Source of the DNA: Streptantibioticus cattleyicolor NRRL 8057 = DSM 46488
Lineage (GTDB): Bacteria; Actinomycetota; Actinomycetes; Streptomycetales; Streptomycetaceae
Length of the DNA: 64,000 nt
Direction: 5' to 3'
Assembly: GCF_000240165.1 (NCBI RefSeq)
Contig: NC_017586.1
Coordinates: 3,596,001-3,660,000, forward strand
Shown: positions 1,743 to 54,779 of the stretch, one piece after another
How positions within the stretch are numbered: the first letter of the stretch is position 1
Layout of the letters: each line of letters opens with the position of its first letter
Program-made: the position numbers and the translations under genes
Notes under the pieces: generated by a model
The model's input: only the letters and a program-made list of their open reading frames with translations
Databases searched by the model: none
Told to the model about the DNA's origin: nothing

Positions 1743-2660
1743 ACCGCCGGGGTGACCCCGGCAGCCCTGGTGTGGTGGGGGTGCCCCCGGATTCCCGCGG
1801 TGTGCGGCTGGCGTTGGCCTTGGCGTGGTGGCCGGTTCGCCCGTTTCAGGGTGCGGGGGTGCCTCCGGCGGGCCCGGGGTGGTGGGGGTGCCCCCGGATC
1901 CCCGCGGTGCCCGCGCTGGCGTTGGCCTTGCCGTGGTGGCCGGGTTCGCCGGATTCGGGTGCTCGGGCGCACCGCTTCCCTCCTGCCCGGTGGGGGGTGG
2001 GGGTGGGTTTTGGTTTGGTTCGGCACGGGGTGGGTTCGCCTATTGCCGGTGCGGGGTCGGGGGCGCGCCGGGGGTGACTCCTCGCTCCCCGTATCCGCCA
2101 AGGCTTGGCTCCGGCTGTTGGGTCGCTGCGGGGACACCCCCGGCACACCCCCTTCTGTCCGGTTGGCGGGTGCCTCTCTTCGCGGGTGGGGGTGAGTGAG
2201 GAGGTTGGGGTGACCCCGGTCTTTTTCTCACCCCCTCCGTGCCGCAGCGCGGAACGAGACCGGACGGGGGCGTGCAGGGGTGTCCCCGCAGCGACCCAGC
2301 AGCCGGAGCCAAGCCTTGGCGGATACGCGGAGCGAGGAGTCACCCCGGAGGGCCCCCGGACCCCAGGCAGACAGTGCGCACCCCGCGCTATACGCCTACA
2401 GCCACGGGTGGGCGGGGGGAAACACTGGACGCCAGCCACGACGAAACGGAAACGGGCGCACCCCGGGGAGGTAATGGCTGACCGCCAGCGCGAGCGAACC
2501 CTCACCCCGGAGGGCCCCCGGACCCCAGACGGACAGTGCGCATCCCGCACTGTACGAACACAGCCACGGGTGGGCGGGGGGAAACATCCGTGACGCCAGC
2601 CACGACGAAAGGGAAACGGGGGCACCCCGAGGAGGTAATGGCTGACCGCCACGACGACCG
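1743..2660 (+). repeat. Intergenic repeat family, copy A (70-nt inverted arms)
   Basis: This 0.9-kb gene-free stretch holds, in order: two tandem versions of a GC-rich unit (starting near 1770 and 1878); a GGTTTTGGTTTGG-containing block (about 1995-2070); an inverted repeat with arms 2071-2140 and 2277-2346, identical at 68 of 70 positions and separated by 136 nt; then two tandem copies of a module with CAGCCACGGGTGGGCGGGG followed by a GACGAAA-rich stretch and ending GGAGGTAATGGCTGACCGC (near 2456-2475 and 2631-2649). The same blocks recur near 13.7-15.1 kb and, inverted, at 41.7-42.4 kb. ORFs through it are low-complexity and differ between copies, so I treat it as non-coding. Its last module carries an ATG that lies in frame with the SARP gene downstream. 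Confidence 0.85.
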
Positions 2661-2670
2661 CACGGCGACA

Positions 2671-5600
2671 ATGGCTCTCGTGCGATACCTCATCCTCGGC
2701 GTCACCGCCCTCCGCCCCGCCGGGGACGCCCCCCTCGGGGGGAACGAGTCTCCTCCCGCGTCGGGATCGGGGGCACCGGGACCCCTCGGGGCGAACGAGT
2801 CTCCTCCCGCGTCCGGATCGGGGGCGCCCGGACCCCTCGGGGGGAGCGAGACTCCTTCCTCGGCCGGTCCGGGGGCGCCCGGGTCTCTCGGGGGGACGGG
2901 GGAGCCCGACGGGGTCGGGGGGGCCGGTGTTTTGCGGGGGGCGCGGTTGCGGGCGCTGCTCGCTGCGCTCGCGTTGCGCCCGGGACGCTTCGTCCCCGTC
3001 GAGTCCCTCGTCTCGGACGTATGGGGCGACACCGACCCCCCGGCCGACGCGGTCGGCGCCCTCCAGGCACTCGTCGGCCGGCTACGCCGGACCCTCGGGC
3101 GCGACGCGGTGCGTTCCGGCCCCGCCGGATACGCCCTCGACGCCACCCCGGACGACGTCGACCTGCACGTCTTCGAGCGCCTGGCGCGCGCCGCCGGCCA
3201 GGCGCTGGACGCCGGCGACGCGCCGACCGCGGCCCGTACCGCGGAACGGGCGCTCGCCCTGTGGCGCGGTCCCGCCCTCGCCGACCTGCCCGACCGCTCC
3301 GCCGCCGCCCGCGTCGAGGCGCTGCGGCTGACCGTCGCGCACCGCCGCAACGACGCCTGGCTCGCCCTCGGCCGCGCCGCCGACGTCGTCCCGTACGCCG
3401 AGGAACTCGTCGCCGCGCATCCGCTCAACGAGACGTTCCGCGCGCAGCTCATCCGCGCCCTGCGGGACGCCGGGCGGCCGGCCGACGCGCTCGCCGGGTA
3501 CGAGGACGCCCGCCGGACGCTCTCCGAACGCCTCGGCGCCGACCCCGGCCCCGAACTGCTCGGGCTGCACGCCGAGTTGCTGGCCGGCGCCCCGGCCCCG
3601 CCGCCGCCGGCGGTGGCCCCCGAGCCGCCCGGCGCGACCAACCTGCGTCCGCGCCTGACGAGTTTCGTCGGGCGCCAGGACGACCTGCGGGCGATCCGCG
3701 CCGCGCTCGCCGGCCACCGCCTGGTGACCCTCACCGGCACCGGGGGCGCCGGCAAGACGCGGCTGGCGGAACGGACCGGCTCCGCGCTGCTGGACGCGTA
3801 CCCGGACGGGGTGTGGGTGGCAGAGCTGGCCCCGGTGGAGGAGCCCGGCGGCGTACCGCGGGCGGTGCTCAACGCGCTGGGGCGCAGCGACACCACCGTC
3901 TTCCCGGCCGCCGGACGCGAGCCGGCCGACCCCACCGCGCGGCTGCTGGAGCACTGCGCGCACCGCCGGACGCTGCTGGTGCTGGACAACTGCGAGCACC
4001 TGATCGGCGCCGCCGCCGAACTCGCCGAGGCGCTGCTCACCCGCTGCCCCGGGGTCACCGTGCTGGCCACCAGCCGGGAGCCGCTGGGGGTGCCGGGCGA
4101 AGTGGTCTGCCCGGTCGGCCCGTTGCCGCATCCGGTGGCCATCCGGCTGTTCGCCGAACGGGCCGAGGCGGTACGTCCCGGCTTCGCCGCCGACCCAGAC
4201 GCCGACCCAGACGGCGACCCAGACGCCGACCCAGACGCCGACGCGGACCGGGAGGCGGTGGACGAGATCTGCCGCCGCCTGGACGGGCTGCCGCTGGCCA
4301 TCGAACTCGCCGCGGCCCGCCTCCGTATCCTGACGCCCCGTCAGATCGCGGACCGGCTCGACGACCGCTTCCGGCTGCTGACCGGCGGCAGCCGCACCGT
4401 ACTGCCCCGCCAGCAGACGCTGCGCGCGGTGGTCGACTGGAGCTGGGAACTGCTCACCCGGCGGGAACGCACCGTGCTGCGGCGGCTCGCGGTCTTCTCC
4501 GGCGGCTGCACGCTGGCCGCCGCCGAAGCGGTCTGCGCCGACGGCGAGGAGGTGACCGGGGCCGAGGTGCTCGACCTGATCGGCTCGCTGGTCGACAAGT
4601 CGCTGGTGGTCGCCGACCCGCTGCCGGACGGCACCCGGTTCCGGCTGCTGGAGACCATCGAGGAGTACGCGGCCGAACGCGCCGCCGAGCACCCGGCCGA
4701 CCGGCAGGCCACCGCCGCCCGCCACACCGCCTGCTACCGCGCCCTCGTCGAGTCCACCGCCCCCCGGCTGCGCACCGCCGACCAGCTCGCCCGGCTCGAC
4801 ACCCTGGAAACCGAGATGGACAACGTGCGGGCCGCGCTGGGCCGCGCGGTCTCCGCCGGGGACGAAGCGACCGCGCTGGCCTTCACCGGCTCGCTCGGCT
4901 GGTTCTGGTGGCTGCGCGACTACCGCGAGGAGAGCGTCACCTGGCTGACCCGGGTCGCCGCCCTCGCCGAGGTGCCGGAGGACGAGGACGACCCGATGTT
5001 CTGGCCGCGGACGGACCTGCGGCTGACACTGTTCCTCCTCGCCTCCGACCGCGGGCACGTCCCCGGCATGAGCGACGAGGAGGCGCACGAGGCCGCCCGG
5101 CGGTTCCAGGCGGTCTACGGCCGCCCCGGCCCGCAGGCCGCCCGCTTCCCCGGACTGCTGTGGCCGTTCGCCGTCCTCCACATCGACGATCGGCACGACA
5201 TGGGGGACCTCATCGGTGACGTGGTCGCCAACTGCCGTGCGTACGGCGGCGACTGGGAACTCGCCTGCGCGCTGGTCTTCCGTACCCACGTGACCGCCGA
5301 CTCGCCCGGCGGCCTGACCGGGGCGGCGGCCGACTGGGCCGAACTCGACCGGCTCACCGCCCGCGTCGGCGACCGCTGGCTGCGCGCCCAGGTGCACGGC
5401 GCCGGTGCCGACGTGGCGCTCCACCGCGGCGAGTACGCCACCGCGCGCACCGAGTACGAGGCGGCGCTGCGGCTCTGCGCCGAACTGGGCGCGCACGGCG
5501 AGGTCGCGTCCCTGACGGCGCGGATGGGGGAGCTGTCCACCCGGCAGGGCGACGACGCCACGGCGACCGAACTGCTGGACCGGGCCGAACAGGCCGTCGA

Positions 5601-6144
5601 ACGGTACGGCATCGGGGACAGCCGCACGTACATCCGGTGCGTCCGCAGCGGGATCGCGCTGCGCGCCGGCGACGTGGCGGGCGCCCGCGCGCTGTGCGAC
5701 CTCGCCCGGGAGGACGCCGGCCGGGGCACGCCGCCGGCGCTCCTCACCGCGGTGCTGCGCGGCATCGAGGCCGAGATCCTGGTGGCCGAGGAACGGCCGG
5801 CCGAGGCGCTGCGGGCGGTCGGCGAGGCGGTACGGACGGTGGCGCCCGGGCACTGTCCGGACACCGTGCTCGCCTGGCTGGCCGAGGGCGGCGCCGGGGC
5901 GCTGCTCGCCCTCGGACGCCCCGGCCCCGCCGCCCGGCTGCTCGGCGCCGCCGACACGCTCCGCGGGGAGCTGCCCCGTTCGGTGCCGGAGGAACGTTCC
6001 GTCGCGCGCACCCGGCGCGGCGCCCGCGCGGCGCTGGGCGAGCCGGCGTACGCCGAGGCGCACGCCGGCGGCGTCCCGCTGGACATGGCCGGGGTGGCCG
6101 AAACCCTCCGACGGGAGGCCGGGTCAGCGGCAGTTGATGCGTGA
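2671..6144 (+). CDS. AfsR/SARP family transcriptional regulator (winged helix-BTAD-NB-ARC-TPR)
   Basis: This is a large SARP-type activator of about 1157 residues. An OmpR-like winged helix (MALVRYLILG...) is followed by a bacterial transcriptional activation domain, an NB-ARC ATPase with Walker A GTGGAGKT (residues 356-363) and Walker B LLVLDNCEHL (around 439), and C-terminal TPR-like helices. Such proteins usually activate secondary metabolism genes. Two oddities are visible: three 17-residue Gly/Pro/Ser repeats (residues 22-72) interrupt the winged helix after its first strand, and an Asp-Pro repeat (DNA about 4191-4252) sits in the NB-ARC region. The start is uncertain: ATG 2671 fits the domain edge but has no clear ribosome-binding site; in-frame ATG 2638 lies in the repeat, two bases after GGAGG. 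The 3' end overlaps the convergent sigma gene by 21 bp. Confidence 0.88.
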   Translation: MALVRYLILGVTALRPAGDAPLGGNESPPASGSGAPGPLGANESPPASGSGAPGPLGGSETPSSAGPGAPGSLGGTGEPDGVGGAGVLRGARLRALLAALALRPGRFVPVESLVSDVWGDTDPPADAVGALQALVGRLRRTLGRDAVRSGPAGYALDATPDDVDLHVFERLARAAGQALDAGDAPTAARTAERALALWRGPALADLPDRSAAARVEALRLTVAHRRNDAWLALGRAADVVPYAEELVAAHPLNETFRAQLIRALRDAGRPADALAGYEDARRTLSERLGADPGPELLGLHAELLAGAPAPPPPAVAPEPPGATNLRPRLTSFVGRQDDLRAIRAALAGHRLVTLTGTGGAGKTRLAERTGSALLDAYPDGVWVAELAPVEEPGGVPRAVLNALGRSDTTVFPAAGREPADPTARLLEHCAHRRTLLVLDNCEHLIGAAAELAEALLTRCPGVTVLATSREPLGVPGEVVCPVGPLPHPVAIRLFAERAEAVRPGFAADPDADPDGDPDADPDADADREAVDEICRRLDGLPLAIELAAARLRILTPRQIADRLDDRFRLLTGGSRTVLPRQQTLRAVVDWSWELLTRRERTVLRRLAVFSGGCTLAAAEAVCADGEEVTGAEVLDLIGSLVDKSLVVADPLPDGTRFRLLETIEEYAAERAAEHPADRQATAARHTACYRALVESTAPRLRTADQLARLDTLETEMDNVRAALGRAVSAGDEATALAFTGSLGWFWWLRDYREESVTWLTRVAALAEVPEDEDDPMFWPRTDLRLTLFLLASDRGHVPGMSDEEAHEAARRFQAVYGRPGPQAARFPGLLWPFAVLHIDDRHDMGDLIGDVVANCRAYGGDWELACALVFRTHVTADSPGGLTGAAADWAELDRLTARVGDRWLRAQVHGAGADVALHRGEYATARTEYEAALRLCAELGAHGEVASLTARMGELSTRQGDDATATELLDRAEQAVERYGIGDSRTYIRCVRSGIALRAGDVAGARALCDLAREDAGRGTPPALLTAVLRGIEAEILVAEERPAEALRAVGEAVRTVAPGHCPDTVLAWLAEGGAGALLALGRPGPAARLLGAADTLRGELPRSVPEERSVARTRRGARAALGEPAYAEAHAGGVPLDMAGVAETLRREAGSAAVDA
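2734..2886 (+). repeat. Three 51-bp in-frame tandem repeats in the SARP gene
   Basis: Three consecutive 17-codon units encode LGGNESPPASGSGAPGP, LGANESPPASGSGAPGP and LGGSETPSSAGPGAPGS. The first two differ by one residue and the third is more diverged, as expected for stepwise slippage. The insert separates the first beta-strand from the LRGARLRALL helix of the DNA-binding domain. Confidence 0.9.
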
Positions 6145-8973
6145 CGCCGCCCAGTCGGCCATGTCCACCATGCCCTCCCCGTCGGCGCGGGCCACCACCA
6201 GCCGCAGCGTGCGGTGCCCGGTGAGGTCGGCGTGGACCGGCACCGCGCCGGAACCGCCGTCCGCCACCCGCGAGGCGTACAGCAGCGACTGGTCGCCGTA
6301 GACGAGGAAGCGCACCGCGCCCAGCCCCATCGACAGCCGGTCGAGCCCGGCCACCGCGTCGAAGGAGGTGCACGCGCGGTTGAGGTCGATCAGGACGGAC
6401 GAGGGCGCGTGCACGATGGCCAGCCCGTCGCGCTGCCACATCCAGCCGGACTCCGAGGGGCGCACGGTCGGCGCGTCGGCCCCCGAACCGGACCCGGCGT
6501 ACGCGAGCCGCTCCACCGCGAAGACGACCGGCGCCGGGGTTCGGGGCGGGGTGGGCCGGGGCCGCGGTGAGGGCGGCGCCGGCGTCGGTGACATCGGGGG
6601 CGATGCGCTGGGGCGCGGCTCCGCACGGTGCGACGGAACGGGACGCGCGACCGCCTGGCGGACCGGCGGCCGGGTCACCGGAACCGCGAGCCGCGCGGGG
6701 GCGGACGCGGACGGACCGGCCGGGATGGCCGGGGCGGACCCGGCCGGACGGGTCACCGGCGCCGCCACGGACGGCCGGGCCTGCGGCTTCGGGACCGGCC
6801 CGGACCCGCCGAGCAACCCCACCGCCAACGCCGCCCCGGCCGCCGCCACCACCAGCCCCCCCGCGATCCCCGCCTTGGCCCCCCCGCCCAACCCCCCGAC
6901 ACCCCCGGTGGTTCCGCTTGCCCCGGCGCTCCCGGTCGCGCCGGTGGCAGTGGTGGTTCCGGCGGTGCCGGTCGCGCCGGTGGCAGCGGCGGTTCCGGCT
7001 GTCCCGGCGGCGCCGGTCGCGCCGGTTGCGGCGGCGGCGCCGTGGGCTCCCGCGGCCCCTGCGGCGGCTCCGGTGCTTCCGGTGGCCCCCGCCGTACTCG
7101 CCGCACCGGCGATGCCGTGGGCACCCGCAGCGCTCCCGGCCGCGCCATGGGAGATCGCGCTGCTTCCGGCGGCTCCGGCCGCGCCGGTGGTCCCGGTGAC
7201 ACCGGCGATGCCGTGGGCTCCGGCGACGGCTCCGGTGCTTCCGGTTGCTCCCGTGGCCCCGGCAGTCGCCGCCGTACTGGCTGCTCCAGCGGTACTGGCG
7301 GCCCCGGAAGCACCTGCTGCACCGGAAGCTCCCACGGCCCCGGCGGTCCCCACCGTGCTGGCTGCCCCACTGGCCCCGGCGGTCCCGGAAGCACCCACCA
7401 CACCGGAGGCTCCGGCGGCTCCAGCGATGCCATGCGAACCCGCGACGGCTCCGGCGGCACCGGTGCTCCCGGCTGTTCCGGCGGCCCCGGCGGCACCGGA
7501 CGCTCCCGCCGTGCCGGACGCCCCGGCCACCCCGGCGGCGCCGTGGGCCCCCGCGACGGCTCCGGCGGCTCCAGTCGCACTGGACGCTCCGGCGGCACCG
7601 GCGGCTCCGTGCGCCCCGGCAACGGCTCCGGCGGTCCCGGTTGCTCCTCCCGTCCCCGTCGCGGTGGCTCCTGCGGCACTGGCCGCCCCCGCGCTCCCGG
7701 AAGCTCCCGCCGCACCGGCGACGCCGTGGGAGCCCGCAACGGCCCCCGCGCTCCCGGCGCTTCCGGCTGCTCCGGCGGTACCCGCGGCCCCGCCGGCCCC
7801 GGCCGCCCCCACCACACCCGACGATCCGGCAGCACCAGACGCACCGGCGGCGGCCGTCGCACCGGAAACCCCCGCGGCACCCCCGGTTCCAGCGGCGCCC
7901 GCCGCACCCGCCGCCCCAGACGCTCCGGCCACGCCCGCGGCCCCGGTCGCCCCGGAAACCCCTGCGGCTCCAGCGGCTCCCGCCGCCCCGGAAGCACCCA
8001 CAACGCCCGTGGCCCCGGCCGCACCCGCGGCCCCCGCCGCACCGGCCCCCGCCGCCCCGGCGGCTCCCGCCACCCCCGCCGCGGCCCCCTTCACCACCCC
8101 CACCCCCGCGAACCACCCGATCACGGCAACCGGAAGCACGCTCTTCAGGCGGGCGTTGAGGTCCGCCAGGTCGGCGGCTGCCGCGCGGCAGCGGGGGCAG
8201 TCGGCGAGGTGTTTGCGGAGTTCGCGGTCGGCGCGGAGGCGGAGGGCGCCGCGGGCGTGGGCGCCGAGGCGGTCGGCGTAGCGGGCGCAGGCGCCGCCGG
8301 CGGTGAGTGAGGCGTTGACGTGTGCCTGGAGGTAGGCCTGGCGCAGCCCTTCGCGGGCGCGGTGGGCGAGGACGGCGGTGGCGTTGGCGGTCAGTCCGAG
8401 CAGGGGGGCGACCTCGCTGGGCGATTCGTCCTCGACGGCCGTGTGCCACAGCACCGCCTGCCATCGTTCCGGCAGGGTGCGGAACGCCTGGACGGCGAGG
8501 GAGCGTTCGGCCTGCCGCATGGCGCGGACGTCCGCGCCCGGCACCGTGGTGCCCGCCGCCGCCACCGAGAACGTGGCGAAGTCTTCGACCAGTTGCTCCC
8601 GTTTGGCGGTGCCGGCCCAGGAGGCCGCGACCCGTCGCACGGTGGTGAGGAGATACGCCCGCACCGCCGACTCCGGTCCGCTGCCGCCGCGTACCGCCTG
8701 GAGCGTGCGGGCGAAGACCTCGCCGGTCAGATCCTCGGCGGTGTGCGCGTCCCGGCAGCAGCCACGGGCGTACCGGCGTACGGCGTCGGCGTGCCGCCGG
8801 TACAGCTCCTCGTACGCGCTGTCGTCCCCGCCGCGCACCCGGGCCACCAGGTCGGCGTCGGACACCGTGCCGTCGGGGTGCTCGCGCTGCGCCGGGACCA
8901 AGCCGTCGACCAGGCCGTCGGCCAAGCCGTCCGCGTCGTCTCCCGGAGTCCGACCGGGCTCCTCAACGCCCAT
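6124..8973 (-). CDS. ECF-type sigma factor fused to zinc finger, Gly-X-Y repeat, membrane segments and NPCBM-like domain
   Basis: This is a 949-residue composite protein. Residues about 38-108 match sigma region 2 (AYEELYRRHADAVRRYA) and 158-218 region 4 (LPERWQAVLWHT). An anti-sigma type zinc finger follows (HLADCPRC; H255, C259, C262), then a hydrophobic segment (about 279-297), about 400 residues of Gly-Ala-rich G-X-Y triplets (296-696) lacking proline, a second hydrophobic segment (about 699-723), a Pro-rich linker and a C-terminal domain (about 816-949) resembling the NPCBM carbohydrate-binding module. This order recalls actinobacterial ECF groups in which the sigma factor carries its own regulatory tail. 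I infer a membrane-tethered sigma factor sensing something outside the cell. Start chosen at ATG 8973; an in-frame GTG at 8994 is possible. Confidence 0.85.
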   Translation of the reverse strand: MGVEEPGRTPGDDADGLADGLVDGLVPAQREHPDGTVSDADLVARVRGGDDSAYEELYRRHADAVRRYARGCCRDAHTAEDLTGEVFARTLQAVRGGSGPESAVRAYLLTTVRRVAASWAGTAKREQLVEDFATFSVAAAGTTVPGADVRAMRQAERSLAVQAFRTLPERWQAVLWHTAVEDESPSEVAPLLGLTANATAVLAHRAREGLRQAYLQAHVNASLTAGGACARYADRLGAHARGALRLRADRELRKHLADCPRCRAAAADLADLNARLKSVLPVAVIGWFAGVGVVKGAAAGVAGAAGAAGAGAAGAAGAAGATGVVGASGAAGAAGAAGVSGATGAAGVAGASGAAGAAGAAGTGGAAGVSGATAAAGASGAAGSSGVVGAAGAGGAAGTAGAAGSAGSAGAVAGSHGVAGAAGASGSAGAASAAGATATGTGGATGTAGAVAGAHGAAGAAGASSATGAAGAVAGAHGAAGVAGASGTAGASGAAGAAGTAGSTGAAGAVAGSHGIAGAAGASGVVGASGTAGASGAASTVGTAGAVGASGAAGASGAASTAGAASTAATAGATGATGSTGAVAGAHGIAGVTGTTGAAGAAGSSAISHGAAGSAAGAHGIAGAASTAGATGSTGAAAGAAGAHGAAAATGATGAAGTAGTAAATGATGTAGTTTATGATGSAGASGTTGGVGGLGGGAKAGIAGGLVVAAAGAALAVGLLGGSGPVPKPQARPSVAAPVTRPAGSAPAIPAGPSASAPARLAVPVTRPPVRQAVARPVPSHRAEPRPSASPPMSPTPAPPSPRPRPTPPRTPAPVVFAVERLAYAGSGSGADAPTVRPSESGWMWQRDGLAIVHAPSSVLIDLNRACTSFDAVAGLDRLSMGLGAVRFLVYGDQSLLYASRVADGGSGAVPVHADLTGHRTLRLVVARADGEGMVDMADWAASRINCR
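6886..8088 (-). repeat. Collagen-like Gly-X-Y coding repeat
   Basis: About 1.2 kb encode near-uninterrupted glycine-every-third-residue sequence such as GAAGASGVAG, with imperfect longer-range motifs (GAVAGAHGAAG, GAVAGSHGIAG) recurring through it. X and Y are mostly Ala, Ser, Thr or Val and no proline is seen. The repeat is bounded by the two predicted membrane segments of the sigma protein. Confidence 0.9.
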
Positions 8974-9171
8974 CCGACCCGCCCCCGCCCGCACCCAAGC
9001 ACCCGACCACCGGCACAGGTTGGCACAGCGACCGCGTCCCCGCGCCCCCTGTGCGGGAGAACCACCCGTCCGGGGTGACTTCCCCGCAACGGCACCCCGG
9101 ACCTACCCGGGAGAGTGGTATTCAGGGCACGCGATTGACGACGGGGCCGGACCCCACGAGCGGTACGGGGC

Positions 9172-9945
9172 TCAGGCCCGCACCGCCGGACGGGACCGCA
9201 GCCCGTCCAGCAGGATCTCCAGCAACCGGGCCGAGGCCGCCGCCTGCTGGGCCGGATCGGGCAGCGCCGGCGCCGGCGTCGCGATCACCAGCAGCACGTC
9301 GGTGACGGCCACGTCGGCACGCAACTCGCCCGCCGTCCGCGCCCGTTCGACCAGCTGGCCCACCACCGACAGCAGCGCGGCCACCCCGGCGTCGTCGTGC
9401 TCCGGCCCCAGCGGCGCGGCCGGCCGCCGGCCGAGCGGGAGGGACGGATCGGCCTGCGGCGCCTCCCGCTGCTGCGGCACCCGGGCCGCCGCCGTACCGT
9501 TGGCCGCCGCCACCGGCTCCGCGTCCACCCGCAGCACCTGCGGCGGCAGCAGCCGCCCGGCCCCGGACGCCGCCGAGGTCCGCAGGAAGCGGGAGAGCGC
9601 GGCCCACGGATCGTCCTCCTGACCCAGCGCCGCCCGCGCCTGCTCGGTCAGCCGCGCCGTCTCCTCCGCCGCGATCCGCCGCACCAGCACGTCCTTGCTG
9701 GGGAACCGCCGGTAGACGGTGCCCACCCCGACCCGGGCCCGCCGCGCCACGTCCTCCATCGGCGCCCCGTAACCCAGCTCGCCGAAGACCTCGCGCGCGG
9801 CCCGCAGCACGTGTTCCAGATTCCGCTGGGCGTCCACCCGCAGCGGCGCCGTACGGGTCCCGACGGGCCGCGTGCCGAAGACCGGCCGCTCCCCGTTGGT
9901 GCCGATGGCCGCCGCGGTCGCCCACTGAGGGTCCTGAATGTGCAT
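9172..9945 (-). CDS. TetR family transcriptional regulator
   Basis: This 257-residue protein has a TetR helix-turn-helix at residues about 62-81 (PMEDVARRARVGVGTVYRRF), preceded by an unusually long N-terminal tail of about 40 residues. The C-terminal half is the variable ligand-binding region, ending in an ILLDGLR helix common in this family. ATG 9945 is preceded by GGGGGA eight bases away. It is divergent from the type II NADH dehydrogenase gene across a 278-bp gap, so control of that gene or of itself is plausible. The gap shows small inverted repeats (ACTCC-GGC-GGAGT near 10037; TTGA-N7-TCAA near 10062) that could be operators. Ligand and targets are unknown. Confidence 0.85.
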   Translation of the reverse strand: MHIQDPQWATAAAIGTNGERPVFGTRPVGTRTAPLRVDAQRNLEHVLRAAREVFGELGYGAPMEDVARRARVGVGTVYRRFPSKDVLVRRIAAEETARLTEQARAALGQEDDPWAALSRFLRTSAASGAGRLLPPQVLRVDAEPVAAANGTAAARVPQQREAPQADPSLPLGRRPAAPLGPEHDDAGVAALLSVVGQLVERARTAGELRADVAVTDVLLVIATPAPALPDPAQQAAASARLLEILLDGLRSRPAVRA

Positions 9946-10223
9946 GTACGTATCCCCCGGTTGTGACGTCTCCCCCCGGAGACTCCCCGCCCCACCTGAA
10001 GGCCGATGTGGTCCGACGCCCCTGGGCGGACGGACGCACTCCGGCGGAGTACGAACATAGTTGAGCGCGAGTCAAGAATGAAGGGGGTGAATCCACCCCG
10101 ATTCCCCTCGATCGGAGTACGTCCCGGTCCGGGTGGGTACGCGCCCACATTTGAGCCCCGCTCCGGCCGCGTGCGCCGGGGGCCGCGCGGGGACGACGGG
10201 ACGGACGGGAACCCCGAGGCACT

Positions 10224-11612
10224 GTGGACAAACGTCCCGCCGTGGGGCGTCATGGTGGGGTGAAGGAGCCCGCACGGATTCTCGTGGTCGGCGGCGGATA
10301 CGTCGGCATGTACACCGCGCTGCGCCTCCAGCGGAAACTGGCGCGCGAGCTGCGGGACGGCAGCGTGGAGATCCTGGTGGTCTCCGCCGACCCCTACATG
10401 ACGTACCAGCCGTTCCTTCCCGAGGCCGCGGCGGGCTCGATCGCGCCCGCGCACGTCGTGGTGCCGCTGCGCCGGGTGCTGCCGCGGTGCACCGTCGTGG
10501 TCGGCGACGCCCGCCGGATCGACCACGCCCGGCGCACGGCCTGGGTCTCCACCCTGGCCACCCGCAGCGAGGGCGGCGGCGACCTGGAGATCGGCTACGA
10601 CGAACTGGTGCTCGCCCCCGGCTCGGTCTCCCGCACCCTGCCCGTCCCCGGCCTGGCCGACCACGGCATCGGCTTCAAGACCGTCGAGGAGGCCGTCGGG
10701 CTGCGCAACCACGTCCTCGCCCAGCTCGACCTCGCCTCCTCCACGCGGGACGTCGAGGTGCGCGACGCCGCGCTCACCTTCGTCTTCGTCGGCGGCGGCT
10801 TCGCCGGGGTGCAGGCGCTGGGGGAGCTGGCGGACATGGCCGGGTACGCCACCCGTTACTTCCACAACGTCGCCGCCGACGACCTGCGCTGGGTGCTGGT
10901 CGAGGCGGCCGACCGCATCCTGCCCGAGGTCGGCGAGGACATGGGCCGCTGGACGGTACGCCAACTGCGCGGCCGGGGCGTCGACGTACGGCTGGAGACC
11001 CGCCTGGAGAACTGCGAGAAACGCGTCGCCAGCCTCAGCGACGGCGCCCGCTTCCCCACCCGCACCCTGGTGTGGACCGCGGGCGTCAAACCCCACCCGG
11101 TGGTCGCCGCCACCGACCTGCCGCGCGACACCGCCGGCCGGCTGCGGGTCACCGCCACCCTGCGGCTGGCGGAGACCGAACACGCCTGGGCGGCCGGGGA
11201 CGCCGCCGCCGTACCCGACCTCACCGCCGGTCACCCCGGCGCGGTCTGCCCGGCCACCGCCCAGCACGCGGTACGCCAGGCGAGGACGCTCGCCGACAAC
11301 CTGGCCGCCACCCTGCGCGGCCGGGAACCGGCCGAATACCGCCACCGGGCGGCCGGTGCCGTCGCCTCGCTCGGCCTCCACAAGGGCGTGGGCCATCTGT
11401 ACGGCCGTCAGCTCAAGGGCTACCCTGCGTGGCTCATGCACCGCGTCTACCACCTGCGCCGGGTGCCCACGGTGAACCGCAAGGCCCGGGTCCTCGCCGA
11501 CTGGACCCTGGCCGCCCTCTTCAAACGGGAGATCGCCGCCCTGGGGTCGTACGAGAACCCGCGTGCCGCGTTCGAGCTGGCGGCGGGCGGCGAGAGACAT
11601 CCGGAGGGCTGA
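10224..11612 (+). CDS. NAD(P)/FAD-dependent oxidoreductase, type II NADH dehydrogenase-like
   Basis: This 462-residue protein has two Rossmann motifs: an N-terminal FAD-binding VVGGGYVGMYTAL (residues about 21-33) and a central NAD(P)H-binding FVGGGFAGVQALGEL. The late FAD motif AWAAGDAAAVPD is also present. This is the layout of single-subunit NDH-2 enzymes that pass electrons from NADH to quinone without pumping protons; length fits the family. A C-terminal amphipathic segment (AWLMHRVYHLRRVP) is typical of membrane association. GTG 10224 has GAGG four bases upstream; GTG 10260 is the alternative. It is divergent from the TetR gene. Other FAD oxidoreductases of this superfamily cannot be fully excluded. 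Confidence 0.85.
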   Translation: MDKRPAVGRHGGVKEPARILVVGGGYVGMYTALRLQRKLARELRDGSVEILVVSADPYMTYQPFLPEAAAGSIAPAHVVVPLRRVLPRCTVVVGDARRIDHARRTAWVSTLATRSEGGGDLEIGYDELVLAPGSVSRTLPVPGLADHGIGFKTVEEAVGLRNHVLAQLDLASSTRDVEVRDAALTFVFVGGGFAGVQALGELADMAGYATRYFHNVAADDLRWVLVEAADRILPEVGEDMGRWTVRQLRGRGVDVRLETRLENCEKRVASLSDGARFPTRTLVWTAGVKPHPVVAATDLPRDTAGRLRVTATLRLAETEHAWAAGDAAAVPDLTAGHPGAVCPATAQHAVRQARTLADNLAATLRGREPAEYRHRAAGAVASLGLHKGVGHLYGRQLKGYPAWLMHRVYHLRRVPTVNRKARVLADWTLAALFKREIAALGSYENPRAAFELAAGGERHPEG

Positions 11613-53900: not shown

Positions 53901-54779
53901 TCAGCTCTCGCGGTGCACCTTGTAGTTGGACGCCTGGGCGCGCGGACGGACCACCAGCAGGTCGATGTTGACGTGGGCGGGGCGGGTCACCGCCCACACC
54001 ACGGTGTCGGCCACGTCGTCGGCGCTCAGCGGCTCGGCCACGCCCGCGTAGACGGCCGCCGCCCGCTCCTGGTCGCCGCGGAACCGGGTGAGCGCGAACT
54101 CCTCGGTGCGCACCATCCCGGGGGCGATCTCGATCACCCGTACCGGCTGCCCGCACAGCTCCAGCCGGAGCGTCTCGGCGATGACGTGGGCGCCGTGCTT
54201 GGCCGCCACGTAACCGCCGCCGCCCTCGTAGGTGGCGAGCCCCGCGGTGGACGACATGACCACCACGTCGCCCGCCCGTCGCCCGCCACCACCCTCAACG
54301 GAGGCGCTGCGCGCCGCATTGTCCGCCGCCCGTCGCCCGCCACCACCCTCAACGGAGGCGCTGCGCGCCGCATTGTCCGCCGCCCGTCCGTCCGCGCCGG
54401 CGGCGGTGAGCGCGGGCAGCAGGGCCTGGGTGACGTTGAGCACCCCGAGCACGTTGACCTCGTACATGGTGCGCCAGTCGGCCGGGTCGGCGGTGGCCAC
54501 CGGGTCGATGCCCAACGCGCCGCCGGCGTTGTTGACCAGCACGTCGCAGCGGTCGAGGCCGGCCGCGAACTCGTCCACCGCGGCCCGGTCGGTGACGTCC
54601 AGCGCGCGGGCCACCGCCTGGTGGCCGACCGCGGTCAGTTCGGCGGCGAGCGCCTCGATGCGGTCGGCGCGGCGCGCGGCGAGCACCACCCGGTAGCCGG
54701 CCTCGGCCAGCCGCCTGGCGGTGGCGGCCCCGATGCCGCTGCTCGCTCCGGTGACCACTGCGGTGCGGGTGGTGCTCAT
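53901..54779 (-). CDS. SDR family NAD(P)-dependent oxidoreductase with an 18-residue tandem insert
   Basis: This 292-residue short-chain dehydrogenase has cofactor motif TGASSGIGAATA (residues 10-21), NNAGG, and the YxxxK catalytic pair in YVAAK, with the Ser of MSSTAG. The usual about 250 residues are extended by an insert between helix alpha-4 and strand beta-5, containing two identical 18-residue units (RAADNAARSASVEGGGGR). Classical SDRs have no insert here, so the fold probably tolerates a surface loop. Substrate unknown. Confidence 0.87.
   Translation of the reverse strand: MSTTRTAVVTGASSGIGAATARRLAEAGYRVVLAARRADRIEALAAELTAVGHQAVARALDVTDRAAVDEFAAGLDRCDVLVNNAGGALGIDPVATADPADWRTMYEVNVLGVLNVTQALLPALTAAGADGRAADNAARSASVEGGGGRRAADNAARSASVEGGGGRRAGDVVVMSSTAGLATYEGGGGYVAAKHGAHVIAETLRLELCGQPVRVIEIAPGMVRTEEFALTRFRGDQERAAAVYAGVAEPLSADDVADTVVWAVTRPAHVNIDLLVVRPRAQASNYKVHRES
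54274..54381 (-). repeat. Two identical 54-bp units in the SDR gene
   Basis: Units 54274-54327 and 54328-54381 are identical at all positions I compared, giving in-frame duplication of 18 codons. Such a perfect duplication indicates recent slippage or recombination. Confidence 0.9.

Follow-up and report, generated by a model that had tools for sequence, protein, structure and literature searches.

A gene on the minus strand of the chromosome of Streptantibioticus cattleyicolor NRRL 8057 = DSM 46488 encodes, in one reading frame, the domains of an extracytoplasmic function (ECF) sigma factor, an array of Gly-X-Y triplets spanning 394 residues and a carbohydrate-binding domain. The gene lies in a stretch of 64,000 nucleotides (assembly GCF_000240165.1, contig NC_017586.1, positions 3,596,001 to 3,660,000 of the forward strand), referred to here as the window, and all coordinates are those of the window. 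The best overall explanation, with a probability of approximately 0.6, is that the protein is an ECF52-type switch protein in which the cytoplasmic linker has grown hugely. Judged from its sequence, the protein belongs to the membrane-anchored ECF sigma factors of the ECF52 type, as a relative of SCO4117; it is an extreme variant of a fusion that is already known. The new element is the giant triplet-periodic linker, the effect of which on signalling is a proposal only.

The features of the gene are given below; conservation refers to an alignment of 49 rows, which comprises the window protein and 48 of the 60 loci marked as intact among the 80 fetched.

6124..8973, minus strand: whole gene, 949 amino acids, a single open frame with Pfam and NCBIfam matches, predicted ECF52-type (SCO4117-like) fused sigma/anti-sigma factor
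8614..8805, minus strand: sigma-70 region 2, PF04542 at 42.8 bits, above the cut-off of 24
8350..8490, minus strand: sigma-70 region 4, PF08281 at 19.3 bits, under the cut-off of 25.7
8185..8289, minus strand: zf-HC2 / zinc-binding anti-sigma domain, PF13490 at 20.0 bits, under the cut-off of 22.2
8098..8148, minus strand: hydrophobic segment LKSVLPVAVIGWFAGVG, with P281, A283 and W287 invariant in the 49 rows and a weak membrane score
6907..8088, minus strand: Gly-X-Y array, residues 296-689, 394 amino acids, proline-free, defined by composition, spacing and Pfam Collagen score
6805..6876, minus strand: membrane helix with the invariant K700 at its inner end, from the hydropathy and charge scan and AlphaFold helix 703-720
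6532..6804, minus strand: Pro-rich stretch, seen in the sequence and likewise in homologues, and described for SCO4117 in the available text of PMC5826349
6127..6528, minus strand: NPCBM/CBM51 domain with C868 and C948, PF08305 at 80.2 bits, Foldseek matches to CBM51, with a 10-residue deletion near 6414/6415

Family membership and reading frame

The open reading frame extends over 6124-8994 (minus strand) and corresponds to 956 amino acids if a GTG start is used; the ATG at 8973, which gives 949 amino acids, is the likelier start codon. A frameshift between the sigma part and the repeat, which the earlier note had named as one finding that would speak against it, was looked for, and none is present. 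Because the sigma part and the array share an uninterrupted frame, the NPCBM domain follows in frame and homologues have the same domain order, the sigma, array and NPCBM parts are one gene, and a frame error or a pair of adjacent genes is ruled out. In addition to the individual Pfam matches, the NCBIfam model TIGR02937 (sigma70-ECF) spans regions 2-4 with 61.5 bits against a cut-off of 42.9. The match of region 4 to PF08281 is also under the cut-off in all seven of the homologues scanned, and that of the anti-sigma domain to PF13490 is under it in five and above it in two; the zinc residues of this domain (C229, H255, C259 and C262) are invariant in 49 of 49 rows. The zf-HC2 and NPCBM domains that the note named beside the sigma domains are found by Pfam around the array.

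The ECF52 assignment is made because the domain order and the neighbouring genes match those of SCO4117-type genes. SCO4117 of Streptomyces coelicolor is the characterised ECF52 member, which activates secondary metabolism and sporulation and adjoins atrA, and the architecture reported for the group comprises a zinc finger, a membrane region, a Pro-rich extension and a carbohydrate-binding module (PMC5826349, available text). The protein in the window contains an ECF sigma domain, a fused zinc-finger anti-sigma domain, a membrane region followed by a Pro-rich extension, and a C-terminal carbohydrate-binding module, and a TetR gene occupies the atrA position (a designation that follows the same text). 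The TetR gene and an oxidoreductase gene are found in the same order in L057 (Streptomyces nigrescens; L numbers denote loci), and 273 of the 297 genomes sampled from the family have a homologue with an E value of at most 1e-40. The literature search turned up no paper on collagen-like repeats combined with a sigma factor in the manner seen here.

The Gly-X-Y array and the linkers of homologues

The array consists of 119 Gly, 164 Ala, 43 Thr, 36 Ser, 20 Val, 8 His and 4 Ile residues and is free of Pro, Asp, Glu, Lys and Arg. The earlier note had placed a proline-free Gly-X-Y stretch of about 400 residues at 6886-8088 within the sigma-factor gene; the measured array lies in the same frame, contains no Pro and agrees with this span to about 20 bases. 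The description of the periodicity as nearly unbroken is too strong, since the spacing between consecutive Gly residues is 3 in 91 of 118 cases, yet this number is far above that obtained in 2000 residue shuffles of the array (mean 17.5, standard deviation 3.9, maximum 31), and the longest unbroken run reaches 21 triplets against a shuffle maximum of 11. The 27 off-register spacings are 1 (3 cases), 2 (4), 4 (8), 5 (1), 6 (9), 7 (1) and 9 (1); the unit GAVAG[AS]HG, which occurs five times, moves the register by a Gly spacing of 4. The Pfam Collagen model (PF01391, cut-off 27.2) gives 91.9 bits over the whole protein, a score that is the sum over many stretches, with no single stretch above threshold. 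The AlphaFold predicted local distance difference test (pLDDT) value over the array is approximately 27-34, and the alignment of 49 rows does not cover this region; the model of homologue L031 is likewise uninformative for its linker, and the predicted RNA fold of the first 1000 bases of the array is no better than that of shuffles (z -0.56).

A comparison with the homologues reveals that a short linker with the small-residue composition of the array (Gly, Ala, Ser, Thr and Val) stands in its place, between the anti-sigma domain and the membrane helix. The repeat is therefore not an insertion into an ordinary sigma factor, as had been supposed, and instead occupies the short-linker place of a fused sigma/anti-sigma family. 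Over 163 distinct linkers, including that of the window (both locus sets, with neither a Gly filter nor manual exclusions), the median length is 42 amino acids and the median share of the five residues is 97%; this share is at least 84% in 160 of the 162 others, the exceptions being L141 and L195. The linker in the window has 397 amino acids, and the longest other Gly/Ala linker has 112 (L144). The homologue search and comparison of repeat lengths that had been proposed thus show a widespread architecture, within which the linker studied here is stretched approximately tenfold relative to the usual length. The shared small-residue composition, which was not met in the available texts on ECF52, points to a common requirement across the family.

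The region from the conserved LKSVLP to the Pro-rich part measures 444 amino acids here against a median of 89 for 166 distinct segments (the window's included), which were drawn from 183 loci in two sets (144 and 39), excepting loci cut by contig ends such as L005, L006 and L176. The next-longest segments have 218 (L195), 207 (L141), 159, 151 and 145 amino acids; that of L195 is not Gly/Ala-rich, and that of L141 reads as frameshifted. Among the listed homologue frames of at least 900 amino acids, the measurable ones have their extra length upstream or in a broken frame and have no long Gly/Ala linker. The combination is thus rare, as anticipated, with no like among the 165 other distinct segments. 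Triplet periodicity also sets the linker apart, with a z value of 18.9; for 119 other linkers, which have at least 20 amino acids and at least 6 Gly and from which L141, L075, L094, L030 and L029 were left out by hand, the median is 0.5, with 11 values above 2, 3 above 3 and a maximum of 5.1.

The two nearest relatives, with 86% and 85% identity over the sigma/anti-sigma part, carry ordinary short linkers, and on this comparison of sequences the simplest account would be that the array arose in this lineage by linker growth. For the array, the output of Tandem Repeats Finder comprises 18 rows that overlap, and in 14 of them the period is a multiple of 9 bases; the periodicity may be in part a mere consequence of duplication in such multiples. 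In 21 internal repeat pairs (20 codons each, 420 codon pairs), which were picked at an identity of at least 75% and overlap, so that they are not independent, 68, 43 and 167 mismatches are observed at codon positions 1, 2 and 3, respectively. The excess at the third position suggests that the small-residue pattern may have been kept by selection, and the mismatch pattern fits old tandem growth together with selection for small residues. Additionally, GGA and GGT account for 58 of the 119 Gly codons in the array against 8 of 58 elsewhere in the gene; across 141 homologue loci, they account for 37% of the Gly codons in the linker and 15% in the sigma part, which indicates that this odd codon use is a family trait of the linker.

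Membrane topology, sensor domain and alternative explanations

For 119 homologues, the mean membrane-span score on the scale used here is 0.19 kcal/mol for the second hydrophobic segment and 4.14 kcal/mol for the first, and the corresponding values for the window protein on the same scale are about 0.0 and 4.6 kcal/mol; the mean Kyte-Doolittle hydropathy is 2.22 and 1.65, respectively. The first segment, LKSVLPVAVIGWFAGVG, falls inside one helix of the AlphaFold model (residues 260-299) and is more likely to close the anti-sigma helix than to span the membrane. All 49 rows have K700 just ahead of the membrane helix, and at least 90% of them have K295 behind the first hydrophobic segment; since both residues lie on the linker side, a cytoplasmic linker is expected by the positive-inside rule. 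Exactly two Cys residues are present in the last 130 residues of 115 of 119 homologues, a set chosen without reference to Cys, and these conserved residues together with the CBM51 fold argue for a C-terminus outside the cell. The sequence evidence thus favours a single-span topology in which the array faces the cytoplasm and the sugar-binding domain the exterior, and the charges, cysteines and hydropathy suggest that the array is a disordered tether within the cell instead of a stalk at its surface. The Pro-rich stretch probably crosses the cell wall.

The sensor domain scores above the PF08305 cut-off, and its best Foldseek matches are CBM51 entries. A 10-residue segment, which is present in 48 of 48 aligned homologues, is gone in frame, with the junction within 6397-6435. 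The missing segment is a strand bearing the common, although not universal, motif Y-x-x-G-[IV], and CBM51 chains of the PDB show a similar stretch at its place. A looser form of the motif occurs in 124 of 163 complete distinct C-termini, and inspection of the remaining 39 by eye reveals 28 that hold the segment with other letters and 11 without a readable domain. The Foldseek match to 2vmi covers 98 columns with a TM-score of 0.59 for the window protein and 153 columns with 0.79 for L031; the values for 2vmg are 148 columns and 0.66 against 156 columns and 0.74. Because of the lost segment and the weaker matches, the sensor domain is altered at the sequence level and perhaps inactive.

An extracytoplasmic collagen-like or polyglycine-II stalk, with the first hydrophobic segment as a membrane span and the array as a stiff rod or a trimer on the outer side, appears unlikely. 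The Collagen score of 91.9 bits and the triplet periodicity far over chance would agree with such a stalk, as would the moderate hydrophobicity of the first segment (1.65 vs 2.22 for the second), and non-collagen Gly/Ala-rich GXX bundles exist in springtail antifreeze proteins (PMC10235112, available text). However, the stiff or multimeric stalk envisaged in the earlier note finds no support in an array that lacks Pro and charged pairs, departs from the register at 27 of 118 Gly spacings and has a structure prediction without confidence (pLDDT approximately 27-34). A two-span topology would leave the NPCBM domain and its two conserved Cys inside the cell, and Lys is conserved at both linker ends, so that the conserved charges and cysteines place the array more likely on the cytoplasmic side than at the surface. 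A more credible, albeit still doubtful, alternative is that the array is a neutral by-product of tandem duplication in an unconstrained linker, with the sensor already decaying and the periodicity derived from 9-base multiples. Linker length and sequence vary widely across homologues, several of which seem frame-broken in or after the linker, the sensor is without a 10-residue segment, the periods of 14 of the 18 tandem-repeat rows are divisible by 9, and in-frame tandem repeats occur in the adjacent regulator gene as well. Against neutrality, the internal repeats differ at position 3 approximately 2.5 and 3.9 times as often as at positions 1 and 2, the frame is intact across 949 codons, and the sigma/anti-sigma part shares 86% identity with the nearest relative. 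It is highly improbable that the Gly-X-Y frame is an illusion and not the coding frame. The G+C content of the array by codon position is 0.79, 0.91 and 0.74, and an overlapping minus-strand frame (5744-8464) gives 0.74, 0.79 and 0.92 there; nevertheless, the high value at position 2 is explained by the Gly and Ala codons alone, and coding in the overlapping frame is rejected since the flanking sigma and NPCBM domains (position-3 G+C 0.91 and 0.94) and the linkers of the homologues are read in the Gly-X-Y frame.

Several points weigh against an ECF52-type switch protein with a grown cytoplasmic linker. The family assignment derives from architecture and synteny, and the published SCO4117 motif has no match in the 198 bases upstream of the gene. 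The pLDDT of approximately 27-34 over the array is compatible with disorder but is no proof of it. The available text of a review gives one to two membrane helices for these ECF groups (PMC8999054), and a second span at the first hydrophobic segment, if present, would move the array to the other side of the membrane. The marking of loci as intact required at least one Cys in the last 60 residues, which makes the invariance of C868 and C948 partly a matter of choice, and the overlap of the repeat pairs limits the codon-position counts. Finally, the deletion in the CBM51 domain may mean that the sensor is failing and the protein is on its way to loss.

In a number of homologous loci (L018, L021, L073, L074, L075, L082, L099 and L141), the frames seem broken in or after the linker or the Pro-rich part, which may reflect errors of assembly or a true loss of the sensor, and a split gene is reported for S. 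clavuligerus (PMC5826349, available text).

The surroundings of the gene contain the following features.

9172..9945, minus strand: TetR-family regulator at the atrA (SCO4118) position, upstream neighbour, PF00440, with the same neighbour in L057
10224-11612: pyridine-nucleotide oxidoreductase gene, upstream of the sigma gene

A scan of 6000-10300 for sigma-70-type promoters gives 0 matches, and the same region contains one terminator-like site (10084-10099, minus strand) where 0.6 are expected. The adjoining AfsR/SARP-type regulator gene (2536-6144, plus strand) carries in-frame tandem repeats of 51 and 12 bases (2731-2896 and 4188-4242), which indicates that repeat growth is wider than the sigma gene. 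A perfect tandem repeat with a 54-base unit and 2.2 copies is located at 54272-54388 of the window. A scan of the same genome for collagen at E 0.001 detects only one place besides the array (L171, C2:6080500-6082000, about 615-780), where a tandem repeat with a 9-base unit matches in several frames of both strands and sits between reading frames that by eye resemble a methyltransferase and a phospholipase D.

Proposed mechanism and comparison with known systems

In published models, the anti-sigma domain retains the sigma domains at the membrane until proteolytic release (PMC8999054 and PMC5826349, available texts). By analogy, the anti-sigma domain of the ECF52-type protein described here would keep the sigma domains inactive at the membrane, the external CBM51 domain would sense a cell-wall or extracellular sugar, and proteolysis at or in the membrane helix would free the sigma part. 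The array, which may have grown in tandem from the old linker mostly by multiples of 9 bases (one Gly-X-Y), would connect the anti-sigma domain to the membrane helix inside the cell in a mostly disordered or extended (polyproline-II-like) state, and as a direct result the sigma/anti-sigma head would be held on a far longer leash without charges. As SCO4117 governs antibiotic production and sporulation in Streptomyces (PMC5826349, available text), a natural member with a linker of approximately ten times the usual length and an altered sugar-binding domain may offer a ready way to distinguish control of activity by the length and composition of the linker from control by the sensor.

A more speculative proposal, which is based on analogy and considered improbable, is that the Gly/Ala linker of ECF52 proteins acts as an inherent brake on AAA+ proteases. 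Following cleavage at the membrane, an unfoldase of the cytosol would start from the new C-terminus, meet the Gly/Ala tract beside the folded anti-sigma/sigma head, and fail or stall. If so, the tract would set how much of the head survives, the 394-residue array would be an extreme setting that yields an unusually long-lived head, and the brake would be akin in principle to the glycine-rich processing signals of DnaX and NF-kB p105. ClpXP degradation of three titin variants is slowed by a 37-residue Gly-Ala tract (PMC9531181), and ClpXP is hindered by a Gly-rich tract in DnaX (PMC6677533). On the other hand, a Gly-Ala tract of 11 residues does not act as slippery and is a hindrance for the most stable variant only, and the absence of an effect on green fluorescent protein is cited in the same text (PMC9531181); these statements follow the available texts of the two papers.

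Several known systems resemble parts of this protein. The springtail glycine-rich polyproline-II antifreeze proteins (PMC10235112) have similar Gly/Ala-rich GXX repeats; as described in the available text, their short GXX runs are connected by loops and pack into small bundles, some of which have predicted disulfides, and the low-confidence model of the array gives no sign of a bundle. The bacterial collagen-like proteins Scl1/Scl2 are alike in having Gly at every third residue; however, the NCBIfam Scl2 model scores 93.7 bits, far under its cut-off of 325, and the array has no Pro or charged residues, a broken register and no LPxTG motif. The collagen helix is stabilised by Pro or charged residues, none of which occur in the 394 residues of the array, and the continuous Gly-X-Y pattern of the collagen triple helix is interrupted here at 27 of 118 spacings, with a longest run of 21 triplets. 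The Gly-Ala and Gly-rich tracts that impair ClpXP (PMC9531181 and PMC6677533, available texts) are also long low-complexity tracts flanking a folded domain, as is the array in a protein for which proteolytic release is proposed; the likeness is at the sequence level, and the tract here differs in its triplet pattern with Ser, Thr and Val. ECF53 and ECF48 (PMC8999054, available text), likened here by description, combine a fused zinc-finger anti-sigma domain with membrane helices, and proteolytic release is proposed for them. The closest system is ECF52/SCO4117 (PMC5826349, available text), which has the same domain order and a TetR gene at the atrA position; the protein described here differs in that a Gly-X-Y array of approximately 400 amino acids takes the place of the short Gly/Ala linker found in the homologues, and its carbohydrate-binding module is shorter by 10 residues.

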